Shown one piece after another: positions 54,649 through 62,194 of a DNA stretch of 64,000 nucleotides (positions are counted from its first letter, which is position 1; every line of letters starts with the position of its first letter). Made by a program: the position numbers and the translations under genes. The stretch spans positions 1 to 64,000 of the forward strand of contig JAHIUW010000012.1 in assembly GCA_018816865.1 (NCBI GenBank), in the 5' to 3' direction. The stretch comes from Pseudomonadota bacterium. GTDB lineage: Bacteria > Desulfobacterota > Desulfovibrionia > Desulfovibrionales > Desulfovibrionaceae. The notes below the pieces were generated by a model. That model was given only the letters and a program-made list of their open reading frames with translations, was not told the origin of the DNA and did not search any database.

Positions 54649-55584
54649 ATGATGAACATCGCCCACGACATGTCGGAACTGATCGGGCGCACCCCTCTGG
54701 TGCGCCTGAACCGTGTGACCCAGGGCTGCAAGGCCTCGGTGGCCGCCAAGCTGGAATTTTTCAATCCCTGCGGTTCGGTCAAGGATCGCATCGGGGCGAA
54801 TATGATCATCCAGGCCGAGCAGGACGGGCTGATTGGGCCCGGTGCCAGGCTGGTGGAGCCCACCAGCGGCAACACCGGCATCGGTCTGGCCTTCATCTGC
54901 GCGGTGCGCGGCTACAGCCTGACCCTGACCATGCCCGAGAGCATGAGCCTGGAGCGCCGGATGCTGCTCCAGGGCTTCGGGGCGAAACTGGTGCTGACCC
55001 CGGCGGCCCAGGGCATGAAGGGGGCCATCGCCAGGGCTGAGGCCATTGCCCAAGAGACCGGGGCCTTCATGCCCCGTCAGTTCGACAATCCCGCCAATCC
55101 GGCCATCCATTCCTGCACCACGGCCCATGAATTGTGGGACGATACCGATGGCGGTATCGATATTCTCGTGGCCGGGGTGGGCTCGGGCGGCACTCTCTCC
55201 GGTGCGGCCCGGACCCTGAAGCAGCAGAAGCCCGGCCTCAAGGCCGTGGCCGTGGAGCCCGTGGATTCGCCCGTGCTCTCGGGTGGGGCCCCGGGGCCGC
55301 ACGGCATCCAGGGCATCGGTGCGGGATTTGTGCCCGGCAATGCGGACGTGAGCCTGTTCGACGAGATTCTTCAGGTCAGCACCGACGACGCCGTGAACAT
55401 GGCCCGGCGCCTGATGCGCGAGGAAGGCATCCTCTGCGGCATCTCTTCCGGGGCCGCGGCCCATGCGGCGATTGAGGTGGCGAGGCGCGAGGAGAACGCG
55501 GGCAAGCTCGTGGTGTGCATCATCCCCGACACCGGGGAGCGCTATCTGTCCACACCCCTGTTCCAGGGGTTGGACGAGAGCTGA
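54649..55584 (+). CDS. cysK: cysteine synthase (O-acetylserine sulfhydrylase)
   Basis: A 311-residue fold-type II PLP enzyme making L-cysteine from O-acetylserine and sulfide. PLP lysine K45 lies in [25 protein letters not shown], the [10 protein letters not shown] phosphate loop and [11 protein letters not shown] follow. The Cys before GSVKDR replaces the more common Ala or Ser. The start has GGAGG; a double ATG leaves the first residue uncertain. Lying between nifS and cysE, it matches supply of cysteine for Fe-S assembly. Confidence 0.93.
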
Positions 55585-55709: not shown

Positions 55710-55847
55710 GCGGGGTGCTGCCTCCAGCTGTTTTGGAGAAAGACCCGAAGCCCGTTTGAGTGGCTATGAAGGACGGTGTTGAGCGCCTGTAAAGAACCGC
55801 TTTGAGCGCTCGTGAAGAATAGAAACCTGTTGGGAATTGAGATCATC

Positions 55848-56768
<921 letters not shown>

Positions 56769-56916: not shown

Positions 56917-59274
56917 CTACATCCTTTCCAGGCGGTCCAGGACCTCGGCGGCTTCCTTGTGCTTGCCGCGGGCCGTGAGCGCCCGGGCCAAATCCTTCCA
57001 GAACGGCGCGTGGCCGGGGGCCAGGGCCGAGGCCTGGCGGGCCAGGGCTTCGGCCACTTCCGGGTCCTCGCCGTTGTCCAGATAGATACGTGCCATGAGC
57101 GCCAGGGACGGGGCGTCCTTGGGGTCGTGGATCAGGGCCTGGTGCAGATGCTCGCGGGCCTCTTCCACGTCGCCTCCGGCCAGGGCCAGTTGCGCCAGAT
57201 AGCGCCGGGTCAGGCCCTTGCCTCCGGGCAGGGACTGAGCCTTTTCGAAATAGCGGCGGGCATCGGCGAAGCGGCGGTTTTTTTGGGAGAGCTGGCCCAG
57301 CCGGATCTGGCTGAAGAGGTGTTCGGGGTCCACGGCCAGACATTTTTTGTAGTTTTCCCGGGCTTCTTTGAGCTGATTCATGCGCTGGCAGATGTAGCCG
57401 TAGTTGTACAGGGCGAAGACATCCTTGGGGAGCTTGGCAAGCACGGTCTTGAACTGCCGCTTGGCCTGGCCCAGATCGCCCATGCGTGCGTGGCAGACGC
57501 CCAGCGAGTTGCGGGCCATGGTGTTGGCCCGGTCGGCAGCCAGGGCCATTTTGTATTCCTCGATGGCGTCATACATGCGGCCCTGGGCAAAGAGCTTGTC
57601 CGCATGGATGTTCAGGGCCAGGGAATCCACCAGACCGAGGTGTGGCTCGGGCAGCAGCACGGCGTATTCCAGGGCCTTGCGTGCGTTGTCCAGGGCGTCG
57701 GACTTGGCATAGGACAGGAAGGGGTGCTTGGCGATGCCCGCTGCGGGGTGGGGGACATTCGGCGGCAGGGAATCCAGCAGCTTCTTGCACAGGGCCTTGG
57801 CCTTGGGACCGCTGACCCCGGGCAGCAGCCAGGCCAGACCGCTCAGACTGGTGCGCCCGCCGAGGGCCGACGGCCCAAAGATCTTGGCGCAGTCCGTTGC
57901 CAGGTCGCGCAGATGGGTCTCGGTCAGACTGTCCGAAGGGCGGTCCGTATCGGGCAGGCGCAGCAGCACCAGGGAAAAGGTCTCGTGCCTGTCCCGCTCG
58001 GCGGCCAGTTGCTTGAGAAAGGCGCGGTAGGTGGGCAGGCCGGTCAGCAGATCGGCATCGGCCTGGCCGCCGTTTTCGGCGGGGTCGGTCTCCTGGATCA
58101 GGGCCAGGCGGTCGCCGGCCTCGATGCTCAGGGATGCATCCGCTTGGTGCATGACCTCTGCCAGGGAATGGCCGCGCCGCACCTCCATCAGAGCGATCTC
58201 GCCCTTGCAGATCGCGGGGTCTTTAGGATTGCTGGGCCCGCCCCAGACCAGGAAGCGCTGGCCCTCGCGGGCGCCCACGCCCACTTCCAGGTCCACTGTC
58301 AGGCGTCCCTGGGGCAAGACCTCCAGGACATGGCCGCCCTCGGTCACGATTTGGCTGTGGGCAAAGGCGCGGCCCGTGCCGTTTTGGGCCGCGGCCCTAG
58401 CAGCGCGCATGGCCTTGCGCAGCAGCAGGGCGGCTTGGTCCGGCGCGCTCTGGCGCAGGACATGGCCGTTCACGTCATGGGGGTAGCTGGCGCAGCCCAC
58501 CGAGGTGGCGGGATGCAGGTAGCCTTCCAGGACAGGGTCTTTGATCTGCAGGGCCGAGAGCTCTGCGGCCAGGGTGCCCGCCAGCTTGCGGCAGGCCGGT
58601 GGTGCGATGGCAGGCAGCAGGATGGCCAGGGCGTCGTCACCGGCGCGGGCGGTGAGGGCCCCCTGGGGTGCCATGTCGTTGACCACGGCGGCGGCCTTGT
58701 CCAGGGCGCTGGCCGCAAAGGCCGGGCCGTAGGTCTCCGCATTGCGCTCCAGGTCGTGCAGCCGGACCAGGATCAGACCGAAGCTGGCGGCAAACCCCGA
58801 GTCCCCGGCACGGCAGCCGTCGGCGTCGGGACGCAGGCAGCCCTGGACCCGTTCGATCTCGTCGGCCGTGGCCCGGGACAGGAGTTCGCGGGTGGCCAGT
58901 CCGGTGCCCGCATCGGTCACGGAAATTTTATAGAGCTGGAGCTTTTCCAGGCACATGCGGGCCATGGCCGCCAAGAGCGGAGGCATGGCCCGGGGGGCCT
59001 GCACCCGGACCCCCTTGGCCACGAATACTCCCAGCAGCTCCCCGTTCAGGGCCAGGGGCAGCAGGGCCTTTTTTTCCCCGGGCAGGAACACGGCGCGGCC
59101 TGCGGCCAGTTCGCTCAGGGAGTCGCCGTCCAGGGAGCGCGGAAAAAACAGGCTGTAGGAGGAAAAGGGCAGGAAGGAGGAGATTTCGTCTCGCAGCAGA
59201 TGCTCGTAGGTGATCAGATCGCTACGGGTCAGCCGCGGGCCACCGTCGGGGAGCAGGCATTTGTGGACTTTCAT
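56917..59274 (-). CDS. degenerate GGDEF-TPR protein
   Basis: A 785-residue soluble protein. After a GAF-like N-terminus (residues 1-120) come two GGDEF-like folds: the first (about 120-300) has AGDDALAILLP where GGDEF should be, and the second (about 405-550, from LLTGLPTYRAFLKQL) has GGRTSLSGLAWLLPG. Neither keeps catalytic residues, so cyclase activity is unlikely. Residues 575-785 hold five or six TPR repeats (AIEEYKMALAADRANTMARNSLG, ARRYFEKAQSL). It may bind a nucleotide or act as a scaffold. The start codon has only a weak ribosome site. It stands alone between convergent and divergent neighbours. Confidence 0.78.
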   Translation of the reverse strand: MKVHKCLLPDGGPRLTRSDLITYEHLLRDEISSFLPFSSYSLFFPRSLDGDSLSELAAGRAVFLPGEKKALLPLALNGELLGVFVAKGVRVQAPRAMPPLLAAMARMCLEKLQLYKISVTDAGTGLATRELLSRATADEIERVQGCLRPDADGCRAGDSGFAASFGLILVRLHDLERNAETYGPAFAASALDKAAAVVNDMAPQGALTARAGDDALAILLPAIAPPACRKLAGTLAAELSALQIKDPVLEGYLHPATSVGCASYPHDVNGHVLRQSAPDQAALLLRKAMRAARAAAQNGTGRAFAHSQIVTEGGHVLEVLPQGRLTVDLEVGVGAREGQRFLVWGGPSNPKDPAICKGEIALMEVRRGHSLAEVMHQADASLSIEAGDRLALIQETDPAENGGQADADLLTGLPTYRAFLKQLAAERDRHETFSLVLLRLPDTDRPSDSLTETHLRDLATDCAKIFGPSALGGRTSLSGLAWLLPGVSGPKAKALCKKLLDSLPPNVPHPAAGIAKHPFLSYAKSDALDNARKALEYAVLLPEPHLGLVDSLALNIHADKLFAQGRMYDAIEEYKMALAADRANTMARNSLGVCHARMGDLGQAKRQFKTVLAKLPKDVFALYNYGYICQRMNQLKEARENYKKCLAVDPEHLFSQIRLGQLSQKNRRFADARRYFEKAQSLPGGKGLTRRYLAQLALAGGDVEEAREHLHQALIHDPKDAPSLALMARIYLDNGEDPEVAEALARQASALAPGHAPFWKDLARALTARGKHKEAAEVLDRLERM

Positions 59275-59463: not shown

Positions 59464-59985
59464 ATGCCACATACTAATAATCCGTTGCTGCGCTGCATCC
59501 TTGAGCGCCGCAGCGTACGCAAGTACACGGACGAGCCGGTCTCACGCGAGGCTCTTTTGGCCATCCTTGAGGCCGGGCGCTGGGCCCCTAGCGGCTTGAA
59601 CAACCAGCCCTGGCGGTTTCTGGTCGTCAGTCGGGGCGACGAGCGCACCCTTGCCCTCGCCGGATGCACCAAGTACGGAACCATCGTCCGTGCCGCCGGG
59701 GCGCTCATCGCTGTATTTCTGGACAGGGAAGCCATGTACAGCGAAGTGAAGGACCACCAGACCGCCGGGGCCTGCATCCAGAACATGCTGCTGGCCGCCC
59801 ATGCCCTTGGATTGGGCACGGTCTGGCTTGGCGAGATCGTCAACCAGGCTCCCCAGGTGCTGGATTGCCTGGACCTGGACCCCGCCGCCTATGAATTCAT
59901 GGCGCTCATCGCCGTGGGGCATCCCGCGCACCCGGGGGCCTCTTCCCGCAAACCCTTGCCCGAACTCATGCTGGAGGCTTTTTGA
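59464..59985 (+). CDS. nitroreductase family protein
   Basis: A 173-residue FMN-dependent oxidoreductase of the short nitroreductase family. ERRSVRKYTDEPV (FMN phosphate-binding Arg residues), AGRWAPSGLNNQPWRF, DHQTAGACIQNMLLAAHALGLGTVW and an ALIAVGHPA C-terminal strand are present. AGGAATC precedes ATG 59464. The natural substrate is unknown. It is first in a tightly packed operon: its TGA overlaps the ATG of the next gene. Confidence 0.9.
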   Translation: MPHTNNPLLRCILERRSVRKYTDEPVSREALLAILEAGRWAPSGLNNQPWRFLVVSRGDERTLALAGCTKYGTIVRAAGALIAVFLDREAMYSEVKDHQTAGACIQNMLLAAHALGLGTVWLGEIVNQAPQVLDCLDLDPAAYEFMALIAVGHPAHPGASSRKPLPELMLEAF

Positions 59986-60602
59986 TGGATATTCGTAGTT
60001 ACGCCTTGGGTCCGCTGATGACCAACGGCTTTCTTGTGCGCAACGGCCCCGAGGCCCTGTTCATCGATCCCGGCGGCGATCCGGCGCTGGTGCTGGAGGA
60101 TATCCGCAAACAGGGGCTGAGCCTGAAGCAGATCGTCATCACCCACCTGCATTGCGACCATATCTATGGTGCGGCTGCCATGGCCAAGGCCACGGGTGCC
60201 CCCGTGCTGGCCCACCCCAAGGACGAGTTCCTGTTGGGCACCGAGGTTGGCGGCGGAGGGTTGATGGGCCTGCCCCTGGTGGACGATTTCCCGTATGGGC
60301 CACTGCAGCCCGGCTCGGCCCGGTTCCTGGGCCTGGAGGTGGAGGTGCTGCATACCCCCGGGCACTCCCCCGGCAGCGTTTCCCTGTATTTTAGGGAACA
60401 GGGGGTGGTCTTTGTGGGCGACCTGTTGTTCAAGCGCTCGGTGGGGCGAACTGATTTTCATGGCGGCAGCACGGCCACGCTGATGGACAGTGTGCGCGAC
60501 AAGATCTTCACCCTGCCCCCGGAGACGGTTGTCTACTCCGGGCATGGACCGGAAACGACTGTGGGTGACGAGCGTCTGCACAACCCCTTTTTCCAGGAGT
60601 AG
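59985..60602 (+). CDS. MBL-fold metallo-hydrolase (glyoxalase II-like)
   Basis: A 205-residue metallo-beta-lactamase-fold hydrolase. The metal motif THLHCDHIYG (HxHxDH), LHTPGHSPGS, VFVGDLLF and YSGHGPETT supply the two-metal ligands. The pattern is that of the YcbL/GloB-like group that hydrolyses thioesters, though persulfide dioxygenases also share it; the exact substrate is unknown. It overlaps the nitroreductase stop by one base, and its last codons include the AGGAG used by the next, selenocysteine-type gene. Confidence 0.9.
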   Translation: MDIRSYALGPLMTNGFLVRNGPEALFIDPGGDPALVLEDIRKQGLSLKQIVITHLHCDHIYGAAAMAKATGAPVLAHPKDEFLLGTEVGGGGLMGLPLVDDFPYGPLQPGSARFLGLEVEVLHTPGHSPGSVSLYFREQGVVFVGDLLFKRSVGRTDFHGGSTATLMDSVRDKIFTLPPETVVYSGHGPETTVGDERLHNPFFQE

Positions 60603-60607
60603 GACCC

Positions 60608-60835
60608 GTGCCTGAGGATCGGATCGAGCTGGATTTGCGGGGCAAGTGCTGAGGAGTGGGCATGGAGGTAGGTTGGTACCTCCGCCTATCAAAGGCCACG
60701 GAGATCGTGGCCCTGGTCCAGCCGGGAGCGCTCTCCGCCCTGGAAGAGCAGTGCCTGATCAACCCGCCGTGGGGACTGGACTCCGTTCTGGAGGGTGATT
60801 CCCTGCGCGTCGTGTTCAAACGGGAGAAGAGATGA
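60608..60835 (+). CDS. candidate selenoprotein, TusA/SirA-like, with in-frame TGA (Sec15)
   Basis: GTG 60608 has AGGAG eight bases upstream. The frame reads 14 codons (ending DLRGKC), then TGA at 60650-60652, then 60 more codons in the same frame to TGA 60833, overlapping the next ATG (ATGA). If TGA is selenocysteine the product is 75 residues, the size of TusA. In the TusA pattern L-D-L-R-G-x-x-C-P, the TGA falls at the catalytic cysteine; the usual CPxP becomes C-U-G-V-G. The C-terminal GDSLRVVFKR resembles TusA's last strand. A SECIS-type hairpin lies just downstream. The weaker alternative is a 14-codon stub plus a separate 57-residue ORF starting at ATG 60662. A sulfur or selenium transfer role with the flanking redox genes is inferred. 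Confidence 0.75.
60657..60688 (+). promoter_or_regulatory. candidate bacterial SECIS element
   Basis: The stem-loop starts four bases after the TGA. Lower stem TGGGC with GCCTA (one G-U pair), two-base AT bulge, upper stem GGAGGTA with TACCTCC, six-base loop GGTTGG. The loop starts 18 bases after TGA and begins with G, both within the known bacterial SECIS pattern; the bulged U also recalls the E. coli fdhF element. Confidence 0.72.
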
Positions 60836-61449
60836 GCAAGATTCCCATGCCCGCAGTGATTTCCGCCAGCCCCCGCCCCGGGGGCAACAGCGATCGCGCC
60901 GCCGCCCTGTTTGCCAGGGGAGCGGCCCAGGCTTCGGGGGGCGAGGTTCGGGTTCAGCACCTCAGGCGTTACAAGGTACAGCCCTGCACGGCCTGCTATC
61001 GCTGCCAGCACGATCCGTCCGGGCAATGCTTTCTGAACGGCAGCGATCAGAGCGGGGCCTTGTTCCAGCAGTTGCTGTCCGCCCCGTCGCTGTTCCTGTC
61101 GGCTCCCATCTTTTTCTATCATCTGCCCGCTGGGCTCAAGGCCTGGATCGACCGCGGCCAGAGCTACTGGTTGCGCCGCCGCGAGGGGGACCCTGTGCTG
61201 CTGTCCCTGCCGTTGCGGCCTGCCTGGATCTGCCTTGTTGCCGGGCGCAAGCAGGGCGAGAAGCTCTTTGAGGGCAGCCTGCTCACCCTCGATTACTTCC
61301 TCAAGATCTTCAATTTCGAACTGCGGGACCCATTGACTCTGAAGGGCCTGGAAGGGGCCGGCGATCTGGCCGTGCATCCCGGGGCCAGCAACGCCCTGCT
61401 GCAGTTGGGTGCCGAGGCCGGGGACCTGGCGTTGTCAACCAAGGAGTGA
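60832..61449 (+). CDS. flavodoxin-fold NAD(P)H-dependent FMN reductase
   Basis: A 205-residue protein of the NADPH-dependent FMN reductase/iron-sulfur flavoprotein type. An FMN phosphate loop SASPRPGGNSDRAA is near the N-terminus. Four cysteines occur in CTACYRCQHDPSGQC (about residues 53-67), like the compact C-x2-C-x2-C pattern of iron-sulfur flavoproteins. SAPIFFYHLPAGLKAWIDR is the family dimer/FMN motif. The start overlaps the upstream TGA (ATGA). It is part of the nitroreductase-MBL-TusA-like operon. Confidence 0.87.
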   Translation: MSKIPMPAVISASPRPGGNSDRAAALFARGAAQASGGEVRVQHLRRYKVQPCTACYRCQHDPSGQCFLNGSDQSGALFQQLLSAPSLFLSAPIFFYHLPAGLKAWIDRGQSYWLRRREGDPVLLSLPLRPAWICLVAGRKQGEKLFEGSLLTLDYFLKIFNFELRDPLTLKGLEGAGDLAVHPGASNALLQLGAEAGDLALSTKE

Positions 61450-61453
61450 GCCC

Positions 61454-62194
61454 ATGTTCGGGGTGCGGGACGTTTTGTTTGCGCTCCTGGGCGGCCGCTG
61501 CCAGGCCTGCGGTGCTTCCATGGCGGGGACGCTGGATGCGGAGTCATTGGTTCGTCTCTGTGCGCATTGCCAGCCTCTGCTCATGCCCCGTCGCGGGGGA
61601 TACTGTCCTCTGTGCGGCGAGATGGTCGCCGATCAGGGGGCCGTGCCTCTGGTCTGTGGCCGCTGCCGACGCGACCCTCCCCCCTGGTCCGGTCTGGCCT
61701 TTTTCGGGTCCTACGCGGGCCTGTTGCGCGACTTGCTGACAGGGTTCAAGTTCAACAGCCGCCTGGGATTGGGCCGCCTGTTGCAGGCTCTGGCCGTGGA
61801 GGCCTACGCCTTGCATGGCGCGTGCTGGGAGCGTCCGGAATTGGTGATCCCCGTGCCGCTGCACCCCCGCCGCTTGAGGGCGCGTGGATTCAACCAGAGT
61901 CTGGAAACATCCCGCCTGTTGGCCCGCGAATTGGGAGTGCCTGTGGGGGCGGAAGTGCTCCGGCGTTGTCGTCATACCCGGCCCCAGGTCAGCCTGCCTG
62001 CCAGGGAGCGCAGGGAAAACGTCCAGGGCGCTTTTGTGGCTGATGAAGCGGCTGTCTTGGGGCGGCGTATTCTGCTGGTGGATGATATCATGACCACCGG
62101 CGGGACGCTGCGGGAATGCGCCCGGACCTTGCGCCGAGCCGGGGCCTCGAATGTGTCGGCCCTGGTCATCGCCAGGACAGCTGCGGACGGTTGA
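61454..62194 (+). CDS. comF: ComF family phosphoribosyltransferase-like protein
   Basis: A 246-residue protein with an N-terminal double zinc-ribbon region (CQACG, CAHC, CPLCG, CGRC) and a C-terminal type I PRTase fold: VIPVPLHPRRLRARGFNQS and the PRPP loop ILLVDDIMTTGGTLREC. ComF proteins support DNA uptake in competent bacteria and have other roles in others. ATG 61454 is preceded by AAGGAG, four bases after the flavin reductase stop, so it ends the operon. Confidence 0.9.
   Translation: MFGVRDVLFALLGGRCQACGASMAGTLDAESLVRLCAHCQPLLMPRRGGYCPLCGEMVADQGAVPLVCGRCRRDPPPWSGLAFFGSYAGLLRDLLTGFKFNSRLGLGRLLQALAVEAYALHGACWERPELVIPVPLHPRRLRARGFNQSLETSRLLARELGVPVGAEVLRRCRHTRPQVSLPARERRENVQGAFVADEAAVLGRRILLVDDIMTTGGTLRECARTLRRAGASNVSALVIARTAADG

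Follow-up and report, generated by a model that had tools for sequence, protein, structure and literature searches.

We analysed a window of 64,000 nucleotides from a Desulfovibrionaceae bacterium (contig JAHIUW010000012.1) and followed up a short reading frame at 60608-60835 that is interrupted by an in-frame TGA. The following features are present on and around the frame.

59464..59985 (+): nitroreductase-family gene (PF00881, by Pfam), first gene of the conserved cluster
59985..60602 (+): metallo-beta-lactamase (MBL)-fold hydrolase gene (PF00753, by Pfam), immediately upstream of the seleno gene
60595..60599 (+): AGGAG ribosome-binding site, 8 nt ahead of the GTG start (from the sequence)
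60608..60835 (+): probable TusA-like selenoprotein gene, 75 residues plus stop, VPEDRIELDLRGKC-U-GVGMEVGWYLRLS...FKREKR (from the sequence and homologues)
60650..60652 (+): UGA proposed to encode Sec (U15), aligned with the paralogue Cys and the TusA CPxP Cys
60656-60689 (+): entire bulged hairpin around the apical stem-loop (from RNA folding)
60664..60683 (+): SECIS-like apical stem-loop, arms 60664-60670 and 60677-60683, loop GGUUGG 60671-60676
60832..61449 (+): flavodoxin-fold FMN reductase of the iron-sulfur flavoprotein type with C52-x2-C55-x2-C58-x7-C66, its ATG overlapping the seleno gene's stop
61454..62194 (+): ComF-type phosphoribosyltransferase, the usual next gene (phosphoribosyltransferase by Pfam; ComF/GntX by NCBIfam, below cut-off)

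The frame starts with GTG at 60608, runs for 14 codons to the TGA, continues for 60 further codons and ends at a terminal TGA, which forms an ATGA overlap with the ATG of the next gene. This layout, including the ribosome-binding site, had been described in an earlier sequence-only reading and was borne out. That reading also predicted that gene callers would report only a 57-residue fragment, and the ORF after the TGA indeed encodes 57 aa from an ATG, or 59 aa from a GTG two codons earlier. The nitroreductase, MBL hydrolase and flavin reductase that it named as neighbours are all supported by Pfam. Further upstream, genes for cysteine synthase A (cysK, above the NCBIfam cut-off; 54649-55584) and serine O-acetyltransferase (EpsC model, above cut-off; 55812-56768) lie ~4-6 kb away, placing genes for cysteine synthesis near the seleno cluster. 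Immediately ahead of the cluster, the other strand encodes a GGDEF and TPR protein of 785 residues (56917-59274, -).

Relatives were collected from 99 genomes, among them that of the window itself. Each of the 53 matches at E≤4.7e-4 had a single in-frame TGA and lacked any other stop. The first set of Sec-form sequences comprises 54 rows including the weaker L062, which belongs by alignment; L063 was excluded as a false match. A DNA pattern permitting TGA, TGC, TGT or TGG at the U codon, run genome-wide on a contig collection, retrieved 51 named contigs, and the codon was TGA in 51/51. The two sets overlap in genomes. Retention of the TGA in 53/53 matches and in all the pattern contigs rules out a chance TGA. 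The titles of 47 of the 51 contigs are Desulfovibrionales taxa (for the less obvious ones, membership of the order was checked), and the other four say only Deltaproteobacteria or Proteobacteria; none of the 51 titles lay outside Desulfovibrionales, the four being too vague to tell. No virus contig matched the pattern.

If the UGA were a true stop, the locus would encode a 14-codon leader peptide followed by a separately started protein of 57-59 residues. The window does contain an in-frame GTG and ATG 2 and 4 codons past the TGA, and annotation by gene callers would give the post-TGA ORF. However, 27 of the 105 pooled loci have no ATG, GTG or TTG within the first 15 codons past the TGA, and on this ground a leader peptide with a separate downstream gene was rejected. 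In addition, D9, which is ahead of the UGA, is invariant in 49 aligned members and belongs to strand 1 of the predicted structure, and the Cys paralogues described below continue through the site. A true stop is thus close to untenable. The sequence-only reading was to be given up if homologues did not keep the frame across the TGA or if their coding started only after it; the frame is kept, and the 27 loci without a nearby start speak against the second possibility.

A profile search at E≤0.01 matched 157 of 297 genomes of the order, at least one of which (G511) has the Cys paralogue only. Extra stops were found in at least four rows among the matches listed, namely a second TGA in G500, G558 and G602 and a TAA in G597. 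The copy with the in-frame TAA (L258) looks degenerate, as does a strongly diverged copy in G571 (L228). These degenerate-looking copies suggest loss of the gene in some genomes. In the wider phylum, from which both samples were draws, the Sec profile (A1) matched 6 of 395 genomes and the Cys profile (A4) 4 of 375, none of them outside the family to which the window belongs. Alignment A1 holds 49 of the 54 Sec rows, long-tailed or near-duplicate rows being left out.

A bulged stem-loop with a G-starting loop had been noticed at SECIS distance, and it was found where expected: GGAGGUA-(GGUUGG)-UACCUCC starts 11 nt past the UGA. The hairpin folds with a minimum free energy of -18.9 kcal/mol (z -3.05), and 2 of 200 shuffles were equally stable. 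Across the 54 rows, 85.7% of the stem cells pair and four stem pairs are changed on both sides; neither value was reached by any of 500 shuffles. At alignment columns 25/36, A is opposite U in 17/17 rows and G is opposite C or U in 33/37, with four G-G exceptions. The strongest test of the hairpin is codon use. Leu25 is encoded by CTC in 44 of 54 rows, as compared with 64 of 404 Leu codons elsewhere (p 3e-22), and Glu20 by GAG in all 45 rows with Glu, as compared with 161 of 283 elsewhere (p 1.4e-10); these are the codons required by the stem. The stem-loop is therefore maintained at the RNA level, as shown by the bias among synonymous codons and by base changes that occur in pairs.

Contrary results exist beside the codon bias, covariation and folding that support a SECIS hairpin. 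RNAalifold, run on all 54 rows, gave no consensus structure, and in nine rows pairs 22-39 and 24-37 of the stem are lost in favour of another pairing. Two of nine single folds were weak and no better than shuffles (L047, z -0.37; L085, z +0.82). When the covariation score was taken alone, a control slid by +2 scored higher (0.203 vs 0.178). Rfam gave no SECIS match at the locus, even at E≤10. In genus g55, six of seven rows (L040, L044, L047, L053, L055, L057) have UHVG replacing UGVG, and in the same six rows the hairpin seems to be re-registered to approximately GCC-(A/G)GUU-GG(C/U).

Homologues with Cys or Sec at this site had been proposed as a check, and both forms were found. We obtained 35 non-TGA matches in 36 genomes, which had been chosen for two matches or an odd match in the profile search. 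Thirty-four of these loci were aligned, L225 being left out because its match begins past the site, and Cys occupies the U column in 34/34. The site reads CGLVP in 28 of the 34 rows. A Cys immediately before the site is present in only 7/34 Cys rows, in contrast to 53/54 Sec rows (Cys14). Comparison of profiles by hhalign related the Sec form (A3, the window plus 37 of the 51 named loci) to the Cys form (A4, 20 of the 34 sequences) with a probability of 98.6. In the tree, which includes 52 of the 54 Sec rows and has few columns for its rows, the Sec rows form a single clade with support 100/98, and no Cys form was seen inside this clade in the rows examined. The family would thus tend to be missed by methods that depend on Cys homologues being close at hand.

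Seventeen of the 35 Cys paralogues lie directly behind mnmE (L221, L230, L232, L235-L238, L242-L244, L246-L249, L251, L253, L255), a gene for modification of the wobble uridine of tRNA (U34). The mnmE-adjacent paralogue is ~85 residues long and often ends in LNLMDF or LNIVEY. A role in carrying sulfur to tRNA U34 is possible. In the genome of the window, no Cys paralogue is present behind mnmE.

The sequence-only reading would also have failed if selA, selB and selC were absent. The genome contains tRNA-Sec (76.3 bits, anticodon tca), SelB (391.9 bits) and SelA (606.3 bits), so that none of the three refuting conditions is fulfilled. We divided the 99 genomes by their best tRNA-Sec match, which was at E≤3.3e-15 in 89 and only at E≥1.5e-8 in the other 10. 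The gene occurs in 55/89 of the former and 0/10 of the latter (Fisher p 1.6e-4, uncorrected for kinship). When the Rfam cut-off is used instead, 92 of the 99 genomes are positive and the gene occurs in 55/92 vs 0/7 (p 0.0026). Three of the ten negatives pass this cut-off with 47.3-47.9 bits, a level also reached by other loci in tRNA-Sec-positive genomes, and several negative genomes are incomplete assemblies. The absence of a match in 34 of the 89 positive genomes counts against the selenoprotein interpretation.

These results bear on the possibility that the UGA is read through by near-cognate decoding with Trp, Arg or Gly rather than Sec. It cannot be ignored that the identity of residue 15 rests on inference without measurement, and that the tRNA-Sec contrast is modest (none of ten genomes, or of seven by Rfam, some of them incomplete). 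Such readthrough would nevertheless leave unexplained why SelA, SelB and tRNA-Sec are present in the genome, why a SECIS-like stem conserved at the RNA level lies at the usual distance, and why paralogues have Cys, the usual counterpart of Sec, at the site. We regard it as very improbable. The gene thus very probably encodes a bacterial selenoprotein in which UGA15 is decoded as Sec; this confidence extends to identity and decoding, not to mechanism, and there is no protein-level proof of Sec. From established knowledge, SelB and Sec-tRNA would insert Sec at UGA15.

The structure predicted from A3 for this one-domain protein (pLDDT 94.5, pTM 0.83) has the order beta-alpha-beta-alpha-beta-beta. 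Its best VIA rows were the SirA-like 3hz7 (Z 10.7), YeeE-YeeD (10.6 and 10.2), TusA (9.3 and 9.1) and YhhP (8.1), with Smr and further folds of the IF3-like type coming next, at Z 8.1 or below. Foldseek alone was weak: it gave no row at E≤0.001, a RumA methyltransferase came first, YeeD was the best TusA-type row at sixth place, and TusA itself ranked 21 (TM 0.73). The predicted model nevertheless meets the beta-alpha-beta-alpha-beta-beta pattern of a TusA-like fold. The sequence-only reading had aligned the TGA with the catalytic Cys of TusA, and this register was confirmed by hhalign, which placed U15 on that Cys. Against a TusA alignment of 24 of 31 loci, the hhalign probability was low for the Sec profile A3 (8% and 28%) and middling for the Cys profile A4 (56% and 75%). 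The scores nevertheless exceeded those of all 100 column shuffles in each case (A3, 22.6 vs 15.0; A4, 29.3 vs 18.5; A1, 20.8 vs 19.2).

Membership of the TusA family itself was not supported. PF01206 hit none of the 49 Sec members or 20 Cys members scanned. Pfam and NCBIfam gave only chance-level hits both for the 49 Sec members (best NCBIfam E 0.092) and for 20 of the 34 Cys paralogues; membership of PF01206 or of an NCBIfam family was rejected accordingly. The CPxP motif is absent, Pro being at +1 or +3 in 0/54 Sec rows (UGVG in 24, others varying). A search of PDB sequences with the profile yielded only two hits, both at chance level and both to a phosphate-starvation regulator from plants. 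Because fold and register match while PF01206 and CPxP are missing, the family is, as judged from the predicted model, TusA-like in fold but not a TusA member. The earlier description as TusA-like thus stands for fold and register and fails for family membership, and the seleno-sulfurtransferase function proposed with it remains an inference.

The flavoprotein gene comes next after the seleno gene in 47 of the 54 rows. ComF is found in 46, the MBL hydrolase in 44 and the nitroreductase in 33; the corresponding numbers for the 105 pooled loci are 83 (flavoprotein), 77, 72 and 52. These counts cover four gene types only, and some contigs stop too soon. In several rows the upstream genes are ~1 kb further off, and in seven of the 54 the seleno gene is not part of the conserved cluster. 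Cysteines 52, 55, 58 and 66 of the flavoprotein are invariant in 47/47, and no NCBIfam model matched this protein at E≤1e-5. A compact Cys motif of this kind is known from Isf.

We tentatively favour, without being confident of it, a redox or chalcogen relay that is formed by the vicinal Cys14 and Sec15 where helix 1 begins and is reduced by the flavoprotein, since Cys14 is present in 53/54 rows and the Cys motif of the flavoprotein is invariant. The reaction is inferred. Sec15 would attack an oxidised sulfur or selenium substrate, or take up a persulfide-type group, and a Cys14-Sec15 selenenylsulfide would then close. The co-encoded iron-sulfur flavoprotein could reopen the selenenylsulfide with electrons, and the nitroreductase and MBL hydrolase may belong to the same pathway of detoxification or sulfur handling.

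This relay competes mainly with two other explanations, plain sulfur transfer and selenium delivery. In the former, the protein would be a bona fide TusA-type sulfurtransferase that passes sulfur as TusA does, with Sec replacing the CPxP Cys. The top VIA matches to TusA, SirA and YeeD, the hhalign scores above all column shuffles for A3, A4 and A1, and the position of 17 of the 35 Cys paralogues behind mnmE, as a TusA-like role would suggest, are consistent with this explanation. It is harder to reconcile with the failure of PF01206 to hit any of the 49 Sec and 20 Cys members and with the absence of CPxP. Moreover, the neighbours in the window (the only locus considered in this respect) are not IscS or TusBCD, and the second Cys beside U in 53/54 Sec rows points to redox chemistry. 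Plain sulfur transfer is therefore unlikely, although it cannot be dismissed.

In the latter, a perselenide on Cys14/Sec15 would be carried for selenophosphate synthesis or tRNA selenation. The Sec rows form a clade, as would suit a selenium carrier, and in one relative (L072) the seleno gene is away from the usual cluster and 1.3 kb from selB, which is on the opposite strand. A TusA-domain protein, YedF, has been linked to SelD, according to the accessible part of PMC5322559. On the other hand, the next gene is the flavoprotein in 47 of the 54 rows, and we consider selenium delivery quite improbable.

A broader interpretation, possible but rather doubtful, is that TusA-like carriers specific to Desulfovibrionales have split, the Cys form acting with MnmE to feed sulfur to the wobble uridine and the Sec form, with its vicinal Cys-Sec pair, moving or reducing sulfur or selenium groups with the iron-sulfur flavoprotein. 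If this were true, the Sec form would be the first selenoprotein with a TusA-like fold.

We found no matching published selenoprotein family in the open-access literature, which does not prove its absence from print, and could not find this family described. A prokaryotic selenoproteome table of 2026 contains 119 families without a TusA/SirA entry (PMC13188914, Table 1). No match to these families was apparent from the table names and from NCBIfam, which has models for many of them, although they were not compared one by one. From a test on 20 genomes, Deep-Sep reported nine families comprising 12 new genes; as far as the accessible text goes, none of these is called TusA-like, and no new gene came from Salidesulfovibrio onnuriiensis (PMC12013277). 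For three of its hypothetical proteins, the NCBIfam models cited in PMC13188914 had no hits among the family members scanned. SirA and TusA are not mentioned in PMC1914089 or PMC9312934, nor is SirA in PMC1794560. To the selenoprotein families, the present analysis adds one that occurs in roughly half the genomes sampled from a single order (at least one with the Cys form only) and that annotation would either skip or show as a fragment of 57 residues. It places Sec in a TusA-like fold that is unlisted in the 2026 table (PMC13188914). It also provides a small, expressible Cys-Sec protein together with named partner genes.

Several known systems resemble the new family in part. YedF, which combines TusA and DsrE domains, places a TusA-type domain in a selenium context: from what is accessible of the two sources, its SirA-like domain carries CPXP and is linked to SelD (PMC5322559), and SirA-like genes occur near a SelD-like gene (PMC4210487). 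It differs from the new family in its two domains, in its CPxP with Cys and in its greater length. The window's own genome encodes a protein (L093) that matches PF01206 and that we read as YedF-like. KCU-star, which is DUF466 (NF033934) in the PMC13188914 table, shares a Lys-Cys-Sec motif to judge from its listed name; by the same name, Sec ends that protein, whereas it is residue 15 here. NF033934 hit 0/49 Sec members. Isf has CX2CX2CX(n)C in a flavodoxin fold, a likeness that concerns the downstream partner gene and not the seleno gene. The GCUG tail of mammalian thioredoxin reductase is flexible and C-terminal; it likewise has a vicinal Cys-Sec followed by Gly, and no relation is claimed, since the pair lies there in a C-terminal tail and here at a helix N-terminus of a small fold. 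The closest likeness is to TusA/SirA/YhhP and YeeD (PF01206), with which the family shares the predicted fold (VIA Z 8.1-10.7 in the top six rows) and the LD-x-R-G-x-x-C register that places the reactive residue ahead of helix 1. The new family is distinguished from them by the lack of CPxP, by Sec in place of Cys, by the adjacent Cys and by its escape from PF01206.
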